The notes under the pieces: generated by a model
The model's database searches: none
Seen by the model: only the letters and a program-made list of their open reading frames with translations
Told to the model about the DNA's origin: nothing
Assembly (NCBI RefSeq): GCF_016741775.1
Contig: NZ_JAERRK010000001.1
Location: 496,001 to 560,000 of the forward strand
Length of the DNA: 64,000 nt
From: Streptomyces actinomycinicus
GTDB taxonomy: Bacteria > Actinomycetota > Actinomycetes > Streptomycetales > Streptomycetaceae
Reading direction: 5' to 3'
Position numbers and translations under genes: made by a program
Shown here: piece by piece, positions 5,047 to 8,157 of the stretch
Numbering within the stretch: the stretch's first letter is position 1
How the letters are laid out: every line of letters begins with the position of its first letter

Positions 5047-5523
5047 ATGAGAGGAAAGCGCACGGCAACAGGTGCGGCGCTGGTCGCCGGGGCCCTCGCG
5101 GTCACCGGCCTGACCCTCGCGCCGACCGCGGCCGCCGTCACCCCCCAGTCGGCGACCATCACCGCGAGCTGCGGCATCTTCGGCGGTGGCTCGGCCACGC
5201 TCACCGCCACCCAGAACAGCACCTCCGCCACCGTCACCCTCACCTCCTCCGCGATCAAGGCGCCGGTCGCGGTGGCCCAGGACTCCATCACCTCCACGCT
5301 CACCCTGGTCAAGGCGAGCGGCGGCACCACCGTGTTCAGCGGGACGAAGAACCCGGCCATGCCCAGCGGTTCGGCGGTCAGCGTCGGCCCGCTGCCCGGC
5401 ACCGTGGCCTCCGGTGACAGTCTGGAGGCGTACGGCGGCTCGCTGAAGATGGTGATCTTCGGTGTCACCGTGACCTGCAAGGCCACCGCCAGGCAGTCGC
5501 CCGGCCCGTTCGTCTTCGACTGA
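5047..5523 (+). CDS. Small secreted protein, unknown function
   Basis: 158 residues. An N-terminal Sec signal peptide is clear: MRGKRTATG, then a hydrophobic stretch to about residue 30 ending in APTAAAV. The mature part is rich in Thr, Ser, Val and Gly in alternating beta-strand pattern, with two cysteines that could form a disulfide. No catalytic motif is visible. It is followed by a larger secreted protein and a DUF916-like membrane protein and shares an upstream motif with the former, so it is probably a third component of the same surface system. The ATG at 5047 is preceded by a GGGAAG sequence. The product family is not recognised. Confidence 0.8.
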   Translation: MRGKRTATGAALVAGALAVTGLTLAPTAAAVTPQSATITASCGIFGGGSATLTATQNSTSATVTLTSSAIKAPVAVAQDSITSTLTLVKASGGTTVFSGTKNPAMPSGSAVSVGPLPGTVASGDSLEAYGGSLKMVIFGVTVTCKATARQSPGPFVFD

Positions 5524-5579
5524 GCCGACCGGGCGATCCGGTTGAGCGACATGTTCCGGATCGTGCCGTAACCCCCTGG

Positions 5580-5621
5580 GATGCCGCAAAAACTGATGAT
5601 CCGTCAGATTTCTGCGGCATC
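5580..5621. other. Nested hairpin containing the shared upstream motif, copy 2
   Basis: Perfect 9-base arms GATGCCGCA (5580-5588) and TGCGGCATC (5613-5621) enclose an inner CTGA/TCAG stem. The inner part holds GATGATCCGTCAGAT at 5595-5609, the second copy of the motif seen at 4922. It could be a protein-binding site upstream of the gene at 5709 or a terminator-like structure after the gene at 5047, though no U-tract follows it. Confidence 0.45.
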
Positions 5622-5708
5622 TCCATTGACTTCTCACCCCCGCTCCACATCAATGCCCCCTGTCGGCGCAGATGAGCCGCTGCGCCAGCAACCCTCAGGA
5701 GGGGGCCC

Positions 5709-7037
5709 ATGGGTTCGACACCCCGAAGAGCCCGACGGTGGCGCTGGGCGTCACTGTTCGGGGCGACCGCACTCGCGGTCACCGCGGGCGGCGCGCTGGC
5801 CTGTCCGGCCGGTGCCGCCGGCACGAACGTGGACTTCGCCACGCACTGCATCCCGCCGGCCGTCTCGGGTCTACCGCCCATCGACGGCACCACCACCGCG
5901 AACGTGTCGGTGGACAACACCAGTCCCAAGGTCGGCGACACGGTCACCGTGACCTACACCGTGGTCACGGCCGCCGCCAGCAACCCCACCGACCTGGCCC
6001 TGCCGGCCGACATCATGACCCCGACCGGCAAGGTCGCCCTCGGTGGCGCCCAGACCGGTGCCGTCACCGTCACCGGACCGAAGAAGAACCCGCCGGTGCC
6101 GGGGAAGGCCGCGTTCCCGTCCTTCTCCATGACCGGCACGTTCACCGTCACCAAGGCCGGGCAGATCACCCTCTCTCCCGGCGACTACAACATCCACACC
6201 AGCTACATCCTGGAGCTGGACACCCCCTGCACGGTCATCACGCCGCCCGCCCCGGTCTCGCAGACCGTGACCGCGACCGACGGCACCCCGTCCAACACCC
6301 GGGCCATCTCGCTGGGTTCGGCGTCCGGTGACCCGGGTGCCGGTGTCACCGTCAGCGGGACGAACTTCACGCCGGGTGCGACCGTCACGCTGGCCGGGCG
6401 GGCCGGTGACACACAGACCGCGGACACCGCGACCGTGACCGCGAACGCCCAGGGCGCCTTCAGCGGTTCCCTCGTCGTCAACGACAAGACGACGACCGGG
6501 ATCGTGGCCTACGAGGGCGGCTCCTGGAACCCCGACAAGGGCGCCGGACCCGCGGCCTACGTCGTCAACGACAACACGCCCGTCCCGGCCGGCAGCCAGA
6601 AGCTGACCACCACCGTCAAGGCGGGCACCCTGTCCATGTCCCAGGCCGGCGACTCCGTCGCGCTGTCGGCGGTCGACTTCGGCCAGGGCGGCGCCTCGAC
6701 CGGGCGCCTCAACTCGGTGACGGTCAAGGACTTCCGCGGCGGGCCCGCGGGCTGGTCCCTGACCGGCAAGGTCACCGAGTTCACCGGGCCCGGCGCCAAG
6801 ATCGACGCGAGCAAGCTCAGCTGGAGCCCCGCCTGCGCGACCAAGGCGGGCAGCCCCAGCACCTGCAAGGCCGGTTCGGCGGGCACCGTCGGCAGCGCGG
6901 GAGCGACGCTCGCGTCGACCCCGAACGGCACGCTCACCGGCGGTGAGTTCACCGTCGACGCCGGCCTCTCCCTGGACGTTCCGGCGTTCACGCCTCCGGG
7001 CTCGTACTCCGGCGTCCTGACCCTCACCCTCACCTGA
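5709..7037 (+). CDS. Secreted WxL-like surface protein
   Basis: 442 residues with a signal peptide (twin-Arg-rich N-terminus MGSTPRRARRWRW, hydrophobic core, cleavage near PAGAAG). The central part is made of beta-rich, Ig-like repeats (TVSGTNFTPGATVTL is a typical bacterial Ig strand pair). The C-terminal third carries GWSLTGKVTEF, which fits the first WxL motif (W-x-L-T), and ends in YSGVLTLTLT, matching the usual WxL domain end. WxL domains attach non-covalently to the Gram-positive wall, and a DUF916 partner follows. The start is set by a strong AGGAGG at 5697-5702. The WxL assignment is by motif; the ligand is unknown. Confidence 0.72.
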   Translation: MGSTPRRARRWRWASLFGATALAVTAGGALACPAGAAGTNVDFATHCIPPAVSGLPPIDGTTTANVSVDNTSPKVGDTVTVTYTVVTAAASNPTDLALPADIMTPTGKVALGGAQTGAVTVTGPKKNPPVPGKAAFPSFSMTGTFTVTKAGQITLSPGDYNIHTSYILELDTPCTVITPPAPVSQTVTATDGTPSNTRAISLGSASGDPGAGVTVSGTNFTPGATVTLAGRAGDTQTADTATVTANAQGAFSGSLVVNDKTTTGIVAYEGGSWNPDKGAGPAAYVVNDNTPVPAGSQKLTTTVKAGTLSMSQAGDSVALSAVDFGQGGASTGRLNSVTVKDFRGGPAGWSLTGKVTEFTGPGAKIDASKLSWSPACATKAGSPSTCKAGSAGTVGSAGATLASTPNGTLTGGEFTVDAGLSLDVPAFTPPGSYSGVLTLTLT

Positions 7038-7137
7038 CCGACCGAACCAGGACACCGGTGGCCGGGCGCCCCGCCGTACGACCGGGGCCGCACCCGCCCG
7101 ACCGCCACCGTCCCGAGCCCGTGGGGGGTCCGCACCC

Positions 7138-8157
7138 ATGCGCAAGCCGTACGTCCTCCTCCTGAGCCTGGCCGGTCTGCTCCTCGGTGTCGGCGCGGTC
7201 CCCGCGCGGGCCGCCGACAACGGCAGCTGGTCCGTCTACCCGGTCGCCTCGAAGATCGCCGCGCGGCCGTACTTCACCCTCTCCGCCGAGCCCGGCCAGA
7301 CACTCACCGACAAGGTCGCGGTCCAGAACAAGACGGCCCGCCCGCTCACCTTCCGGCTGTACGCGGCCGACGCCTACAACACCGCCCGGGACGGCGGGTT
7401 CGCCGTGCGCACCCTGAAGGAGAAGATGAGCGGGGTGGGGGCCTGGGCGAAGCCCGCGAAGTCCCGGATCACCGTGCCCGCGCACAGAACCGTCACCGTG
7501 CCCGTCGTCCTGCGCGTCCCCGAGGGGGCGGAGCCCGGCGACCACCCCGGCGCGATCGTCGCCCTGGACGAGAAGGTGGACCCCGGCAGCGGCAGGCTCG
7601 CGCTCGGTGTGCAGCGGGCCGTCGGCGCTCGGGTCTATCTGCGGGTCGGCGGTCCCACGCTCCCCGCGCTCTCCGTCGAGCAGGTGCGGTTCGGCCACCA
7701 CCAGCCGCTGCTGCCGGGCCTCGGCGACAGCACGGCGACCGTCTCCTACACCCTGCGCAACACCGGGAACGTGACCCTCAGCCCCAAGGTGGAGCTGAAG
7801 GCGCGCGGGCTGTTCGGCCGTACGCTGCTCGACCGGGACCTGACCCGGGTGCCCTCCGAACTGCTGCCCGGGCAACGGGTGCGGCTCACGGAGACCTGGC
7901 GCGGGGCGCCCCAGCTCGACCGGGGGAGCGTGACCGTGACCGCCAGTGCGCCGGGCACCCGGCAGTCGGCCGGCGCTTCCTTCCTCGCGCTGTCCTGGCT
8001 GCTGGTGGCGCTCGTGTTCGCCGCCGGGGTGCTGACCGGGGCGCTGCTGGTCAGAGCGCGTCGGGTCCGCGCTCGCCGGTCCGCACCCGTACGACCGTCT
8101 CCACCGGAACGGACCACACCTTCCCGTCCCCGATCTTCCCCGTCTGCGCGGCCCTGA
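7138..8157 (+). CDS. DUF916-like (WxL-interacting) membrane-anchored surface protein
   Basis: 339 residues. A signal peptide ends near PARAAD (about residue 25). The extracellular part begins with [19 protein letters not shown] and the [15 protein letters not shown] strand typical of DUF916/WxLIP domains, which bind peptidoglycan and WxL partners. A second beta domain follows (about 180-275). A single membrane helix at about 283-302 ([20 protein letters not shown]) is followed by a 35-residue basic, Pro/Ser/Arg-rich tail. The tail is encoded antisense to the last 107 bases of glnK, an unusually long convergent overlap. It sits 100 bases behind the WxL-like gene, so both are probably expressed together. 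Confidence 0.74.

Follow-up and report, generated by a model that had tools for sequence, protein, structure and literature searches.

Gene content and organization of the locus

The locus analyzed here lies in a 64,000-nucleotide stretch of the Streptomyces actinomycinicus genome (assembly GCF_016741775.1, contig NZ_JAERRK010000001.1, positions 496,001 to 560,000), hereafter the window, whose numbering is used throughout. It contains three co-oriented genes, designated P1, P2 and P3, and the last two resemble the WxL surface protein systems of Firmicutes.

5047-5523, plus strand: P1, 158 amino acids (aa), secreted immunoglobulin-like (Ig-like) beta-sandwich protein with two conserved Cys
5709-7037, plus strand: P2, 442 aa, secreted large WxL-type protein
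7138-8157, plus strand: P3, 339 aa, WxL-interacting protein (WxLIP)

A preliminary description of this DNA had placed three open reading frames (ORFs) in a row, the first of them encoding a small secreted beta-rich protein. The ORF list contains all three at the coordinates claimed, and P1 indeed combines a signal-type start with a predicted beta-sandwich. According to the reading of the translations, a signal-type sequence is found at the N-terminus of P1, P2 and P3 alike. The flanks are cdd on one side and glnK-amt-era on the other (gene names from sequence reading), and glnK (8051-8389, minus strand) overlaps the 3' end of P3 tail to tail by 107 bp (8051-8157). The source genome has one PF06030 match and one PF13731 match (E <= 1), both inside the P2-P3 locus.

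WxL-type domain of P2

Three domains follow the signal-type sequence of P2.

5820-6278, plus strand: N-terminal domain related to P1 (aa 38-190; block predicted local distance difference test (pLDDT) values of 76-92 over aa 41-180)
6294-6578, plus strand: middle domain, neocarzinostatin fold in the model (aa 196-290)
6579-7034, plus strand: WxL-type domain (aa 291-442; first motif W349-S-L, second Trp replaced, LTLTL end)

Against the Pfam WxL family (PF13731, curated cut-off 25), full-length P2 scored 19.5 bits (E 0.001), and its C-terminal fragment alone reached 22.9 bits (E 9.3e-5). When 25 C-terminal domains, that of the window included, were scanned, PF13731 was the sole family found, being present in 21 of them (E <= 0.01). 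The V, D, R and W at positions W-10, W-8, W-6 and W0 of the first motif are invariant in all 25. Position W+2 is occupied by Leu in 20 domains and by Val or Ile in five, Gly stands at W-1 in 21 and Ala at W-2 in 14. The available text of PMC9772566 describes the first motif of Firmicutes WxL domains as a hydrophobic residue at W-10, Asp at W-8, Arg at W-6 and a hydrophobic residue at W+4. In addition, the WxL region shows the lowest ratio of nonsynonymous to synonymous substitutions (dN/dS) within P2, namely 0.20. A lipobox in P2 was also considered and dropped, since its Cys is not conserved according to the reading of the alignment.

P3 as the predicted WxL-interacting partner

Three segments were distinguished in P3.

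7261-7557, plus strand: PF06030 match, WxLIP peptidoglycan-binding domain (PGBD, formerly DUF916; aa 42-140)
7735-7968, plus strand: second domain, DUF7507-like (aa 200-277), at the position of DUF3324 in Firmicutes
7975-8052, plus strand: transmembrane segment followed by a basic tail, by hydropathy

The PF06030 match is significant (37.9 bits, E 2.1e-9, cut-off 27.3), and a profile of 19 P3-type proteins matched 135 positions of the PGBD in the solved structure of Enterococcus EfmWxLIP1 (9i25/9i1y) with an E-value of 7e-8. The score of DUF7507 is 26.8 bits with the whole protein and 28.3 bits with the fragment, relative to a cut-off of 27.

The absence of a DUF916 match in the gene starting at 7138 had been named beforehand as a test that could refute the preliminary description. 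This match is present above the curated cut-off, and the WxL-like end ascribed to the gene starting at 5709 is supported by the family profile (21 of 25 domains) together with the invariant residues of the first motif. At the sequence level, the end of P2 is thus confirmed as a divergent WxL domain. It is a variant rather than a textbook WxL domain, and the P2-P3 pair is called a variant because the second WxL motif is missing in P2 and DUF3324 is not seen in P3.

P3 had also been described as an anchored partner, which agrees with the finding of a C-terminal hydrophobic segment and a net positive tail in 19 of 19 P3-type proteins, that of the window included (hydropathy only). By the positive-inside rule, a basic tail after a membrane helix marks the cytoplasmic side; for this reason the P3 anchor most likely sits in the membrane of the bacterium itself. 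The insertion of the WxLIP helix into the host membrane is proposed in the accessible part of PMC10599100; the basic tail that follows the helix in all 19 proteins speaks against it.

Head domains of P2 and their relation to P1

The AlphaFold2 model of P1 is a beta-sandwich with a mean pLDDT of 83.4 (about 92 in the mature part). A fold search with it returned generic Ig-like proteins, with a best Z of 8.1. The N-terminal part of P2 (aa 38-190) forms a single domain that also has two conserved Cys. No match between P1 and P2 was obtained using BLASTP, and the P1 profile aligned to P2 orthologues alone with 59% over only 37 columns. At the level of families, the P1 profile (19 sequences) and the profile of the P2 N-terminal domain (13 sequences) aligned in hhalign with a probability of 95% (E 2.8e-8) over 130 columns, and both Cys of the two families are in register according to the reading of the alignment. 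Because the family profiles align in this way, P1 is regarded as a free relative of the outer domain of P2, a relationship described here for the first time. The assignment of P1 to the small WxL proteins known from Firmicutes clusters was ruled out, as P1 gave no WxL match at E <= 10.

The middle domain of P2, as predicted, has the neocarzinostatin fold. Its model superimposes on neocarzinostatin (1nco) with Z 12.8 and a root-mean-square deviation of 2.1 over 88 residues (23% identity) and on macromomycin with Z 11.7. The top five rows span Z 11.7-12.8, followed by 9.8 and by values of 8.8 or lower. The corresponding Pfam family PF00960 matched the domain of the window with 16.8 bits (E 0.0071), below the cut-off of 25. 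The same family was detected in four of five middle domains scanned, always below the cut-off, and in one of them another family ranked higher. Macromomycin was also the top match of the domain in a PDB profile search, not significant at E 0.068, and IPT/TIG matches the domain weakly too. Foldseek matches of the whole P2, which were long, loose alignments to multi-domain beta proteins, were discarded.

Conservation of the three-gene set

The 80 best-listed named loci with P2, taken from among the matches listed for this protein, all belong to Streptomyces (74-93% identity). P1 is present in 77 of them, and P3 follows P2 in 79; in the single locus without P3 (L241), the sequence stops 71 bases past P2. 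In 20 loci of P2 orthologues picked over a wider range (53-92% identity), P2 was found in 20, P3 in 19, P1 in 10 and both cdd and era in 19. Among 199 genomes of the genus, a P2 match was detected in 140 (about 59 near full length, as counted from the listing) and a P1 match in 106. P1-like and P2-like genes also stand in pairs at a second place in five loci picked for that (L112-L116).

The median dN/dS was 0.42 for P1 (77 comparisons), 0.26 for P2 (80) and 0.38 for P3 (79). In the tail of P3, which is the region of overlap with glnK, the synonymous rate dS is reduced (0.24 vs 0.48-0.58 in the rest of P3).

Promoter-like elements and palindromes

Two promoter-like elements and two palindromes were found upstream of P1 and P2.

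4878-4907, plus strand: promoter-like element of P1, TTG-N21-TCAATG
4920-4935, plus strand: palindrome CCGACGACCCGTCAGA, 12 bp downstream of the P1 TCAATG
5593-5607, plus strand: palindrome CTGATGATCCGTCAG, upstream of the P2 promoter-like element
5626-5655, plus strand: promoter-like element of the P2-P3 unit, TTGACTTCT-N15-TCAATG

In the named loci, TTGACTTYT-N15-TSAATG stands upstream of P2 in 75 of 80 cases, of P1 in 0 of 77 and of P3 in 0 of 79. A search of 101 genomes of the genus with TTGACTTCT-N10-18-TSAATG gave 42 matches in 36 genomes (one with the reversed control), and the spacer was N15 in 41. The same search in 150 genomes of the family gave 39 matches in 30 genomes (control, four), 38 of them with N15. 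At 32 of these 39, a PF06030 match on the same strand follows at a distance of no more than 2.6 kb. In genome G146, PF06030 follows the element already after 283 bp, and therefore there is no space for a WxL gene between them. Sequences were read at 30 of the 42 genus matches and 12 of the 39 family matches (three of the other 27 family matches are sites of the genus search). At 41 of these 42 sites the element precedes a WxL ORF, as scored with a WxL profile whose source alignment includes members of these families; the exception has an N14 spacer.

The element of P1 at 4878 has the same spacing as that of P2. TTG-N21-TCAATG occurs in the window twice on the plus strand, as these two elements, and once on the minus strand. 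It was present in all seven further P1 orthologues looked at and absent from five P1-like paralogues, three of which have TTGACTTCT. When 75 P1 upstream regions (named loci or window) were aligned with TCAATG as the anchor, position -24 was T without exception, and the frequency of T at -23 and that of G at -22 were both 73%. Since a simple scan of positions 4800-8500 for the sigma-70 consensus found no promoter, the element is called promoter-like only. Judged by its distribution, this conserved signature, which is new here, marks WxL genes; with 15 fixed bases marking them, the regulator becomes directly searchable.

The 250 bp preceding P2 contain the palindrome CTGAY-N5-RTCAG in 76 of 80 loci, compared with one of 77 for P1 and one of 79 for P3; the total number of matches in 1.04 Mb was 78. 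Its longer form CTGATGGNCCATCAG is present with at least 13 of 15 bases in 58 of the 80 P2 loci, starting at -33/-34 from TTGACTTYT in 54 and at -54 in four; in another WxL family the palindrome starts at -45 (six loci). These offsets correspond to steps of about one and about two helical turns. At the same threshold, the palindrome occurs at 27 of the 42 element sites read and at 0 of the 12 from other genera, and it is thus less conserved than the promoter-like element. Upstream of P1, the related palindrome CCGACGGACCGTCAGA is found with at least 13 of 16 bases in 77 of 78 regions, that of the window included, and TCAATG precedes it by 10-13 bp in 74 of 78. On the plus strand of all 77 loci, such matches number 90 in total. 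Judging from their similar elements and related palindromes, P1 and P2-P3 seem to be transcribed separately but under common control.

This arrangement could be extended to a switch between free and anchored forms. In such a dedicated WxL regulon, P1, P2-P3 and further WxL genes would share one class of TTG-N21-TCAATG promoters. A single factor bound to the palindrome would activate the wall-anchored form and shut down the free one. The position upstream of the P2 promoter in helical-turn steps would suit an activator, and the position of the same putative factor downstream of the P1 promoter would suit a roadblock. We regard this extension as unlikely.

The palindrome between P1 and P2 also lies within a predicted hairpin (5577-5620, region z -3.52). 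The hairpin was not used as a terminator, as its outer stem was found only in L092-L094 among 18 other upstream regions. A neighbouring pair of helix-turn-helix and major facilitator superfamily genes was dropped as the regulator, because many orthologous loci have no match to it. In one genome, the palindrome CTGAYGRWYCGTCAGA immediately precedes three further genes, identified by sequence reading as one P450-like and two amidohydrolase-like genes (L133-L135, base 1500), and the factor binding the palindrome may therefore have other targets.

Proposed function and alternative explanations

The best explanation of the whole, in which we have good confidence, is that P2 and P3 represent an actinobacterial WxL/WxLIP surface pair, with P3 held in the membrane and the P2 head directed outward, and that P1 is a free version belonging to the same regulon. 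P2-P3 most likely acts as a membrane-held wall clamp displaying a two-domain head. P3 would insert into the bacterium's own membrane via its C-terminal helix, with the basic tail inside, and reach into the wall. Its PGBD would capture the WxL-type domain of P2 and hold it at the peptidoglycan. The outer domains of P2, P1-like Ig and neocarzinostatin-fold, would then face outward as a putative ligand-binding head, and P1, transcribed separately, would be secreted as a free version of the outermost domain. Of this picture, the homologies, the adjacency of the genes, the domain architecture and the conservation of the promoter-like signature are observed, and from them the complex, its binding to peptidoglycan, the topology, the co-regulation and a ligand-binding head are deduced.

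Several results weigh against this explanation. P2 alone remains under the PF13731 cut-off, both whole and as a fragment. The second WxL motif is absent from all 25 C-terminal domains, which have no Trp in their last 40 residues, and at W+4, for which a hydrophobic residue is published, 20 of them have Gly and five have Ala. Neither full-length P3 nor its second half alone gave a DUF3324 (HBD) match at E <= 10. The AlphaFold2 model of P2 aa 291-442 (block pLDDT 47-74) is too unsure to show a fold. PDB searches returned no WxL chain, and the searched set may contain none: the WxL-domain profile yielded no relevant match (best E 0.2, all others attributable to chance), and the best match of the WxL region from another locus, L131, was a nanobody by chance (E 0.13). 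None of the 12 sites read in other genera has a strong palindrome, the agreement being 8-12 of 15 bases. In addition, P1 occurs without P2 and P3 in four fetched loci (L121-L124), in two between cdd and era and in two beside glnK. As to the unsure model, the accessible part of PMC10599100 describes a PGBD of low stability when isolated and proposes mutual stabilization of PGBD and WxL; this would fit the single-chain P2 result and is no proof.

P2 and P3 might share WxL/WxLIP ancestry while the WxL-like domain no longer binds peptidoglycan, so that P2 stays at the surface only via P3. The lost second motif, the non-hydrophobic W+4, the Pfam score under the cut-off and the membrane segment of P3 speak for such a loss, and we consider it possible, although doubtful: the first motif keeps V, D, R and W without exception, and dN/dS within P2 is lowest in the WxL region. 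Moreover, the available text of PMC9772566 argues that WxL motifs are buried and structural, so binding could survive when a single Trp is lost.

The middle domain invites another explanation, namely that P2-P3 displays a small-molecule-binding head sequestering a hydrophobic compound, e.g., a toxic metabolite, at the surface, with P1 as a released partner. The Z values for neocarzinostatin and macromomycin, with the next row at 9.8, and the non-significant top profile match to macromomycin point in this direction. Neocarzinostatin, however, has disulphides, and the P2 middle domain contains no Cys. PF00960 is below the cut-off, absent from one of five domains and outranked by another family in one, IPT/TIG matches weakly as well, and a shared fold shows no function; such a role appears quite improbable. 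P1 could also have nothing to do with P2-P3 and have remained close to cdd and era through chance conservation of gene order, as its persistence without P2-P3 in the four fetched loci and its absence among the matches in 10 of the 20 P2 loci picked over a wide identity range would suggest. Its relationship to the N-terminal domain of P2, its similar element and related palindrome, and the P1-like/P2-like pairs at a second place in the five loci picked for that make chance proximity an unlikely account.

Comparison with known systems

The WxL/WxLIP clusters of Lactobacillales and Bacillales (Csc, Elr) likewise place a large secreted WxL-type protein beside a PF06030 protein with a C-terminal membrane helix, and D, R and W of the first motif are common to them and P2. 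Unlike P2, they have the second WxL motif. The Firmicutes clusters combine a small and a large WxL protein with one WxLIP, whereas P1 is not a WxL protein and the genome has a single PF13731 match (E <= 1). The second WxLIP domain is DUF3324 in Firmicutes and DUF7507-like in P3. In EfmWxLIP1 of Enterococcus faecium (9i25, 9i1y), the PGBD is matched by the P3 profile and the second domain is not matched by sequence. The host also differs, being a soil actinomycete genus, as does the P2 head with its Ig-like and neocarzinostatin-fold domains. With the neocarzinostatin family, P2 shares the predicted fold of aa 196-290; its domain differs in being part of a wall protein, in lacking cysteines and in scoring below the Pfam cut-off.

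According to the available text of PMC9772566, more than 91% of 938 known WxL sequences come from Firmicutes, and the systems are described as host-binding complexes of gut commensals. PF06030 is present in nearly half of the sampled family genomes (72/150), which points to wall display as a general role. Previous studies of this arrangement have dealt mainly with bacteria of the gut and of food; in Streptomyces it is accompanied by a small free protein and by its own well conserved promoter-like signature. The literature search, with subscription papers and preprints outside its scope, found no paper on Streptomyces WxL proteins or on the promoter-like element.

WxL/WxLIP genes across the family

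PF06030 was detected in 72 of 150 family genomes at E <= 0.001 (67 over the cut-off) and in 57 of 296 class genomes at E <= 1e-4. A WxL-like ORF lies just upstream of PF06030 in 26 of the 29 best-scoring family loci, both with the full-alignment WxL profile and with the profile from P2 orthologues alone; the three other loci have less than 400 bp of upstream DNA each.

Elsewhere in the family, the WxL-type ends seemingly sit on phosphatase or haem-binding domains. A type I phosphodiesterase-like protein (L131:7309-9348) has a WxL-type end scoring 25.1 bits vs the cut-off of 25, and it is the only one of L125, L127, L130 and L131 in which Pfam calls WxL; the other three were assigned by the P2-derived profile and motif residues. 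In L127 (5698-13303), a WxL-ended protein shows a weak HtaA match (E 7.9e-4), with WxLIP, HtaA and ABC-type genes nearby. In L125 (6152-17997), a WxL-ended protein with Ig-like repeats is encoded, and the WxL/WxLIP genes stand beside HtaA and ABC-transporter genes. In these two neighbourhoods HtaA was identified by Pfam over the cut-off and the ABC-transporter genes by reading, and the setting suggests wall display in haem uptake.

The locus L130 (5422-9945) encodes a metallophosphoesterase with a WxL end, in which Pfam WxL was not found at E 0.01 with the whole protein, a WxLIP and a HupE/UreJ_2 protein with His after the signal peptide (reading). The accessible part of PMC12537917 describes Ang-2 / HupE-UreJ_2 neighbourhoods that include DUF916 and metallophosphatases. 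L130 has the same DUF916 and metallophosphatase set, which suggests by analogy that the metallophosphatase neighbour of Ang-2 genes may be WxL-anchored. The head of this WxL protein differs from that of P2, and the set is not part of the P1-P3 locus.

Beside LPxTG/LAxTG-ended proteins with P2-N-like domains, L118-L120 encode a protein called P3-like on the basis of 35-37% identity and not of a PF06030 score; no WxL match was found in these loci. L118 also has, in a row with the P3-like gene, a gene for a membrane protein with a weak neocarzinostatin match. The palindrome CTGATGTGCCGTCAG stands upstream in L118-L120.

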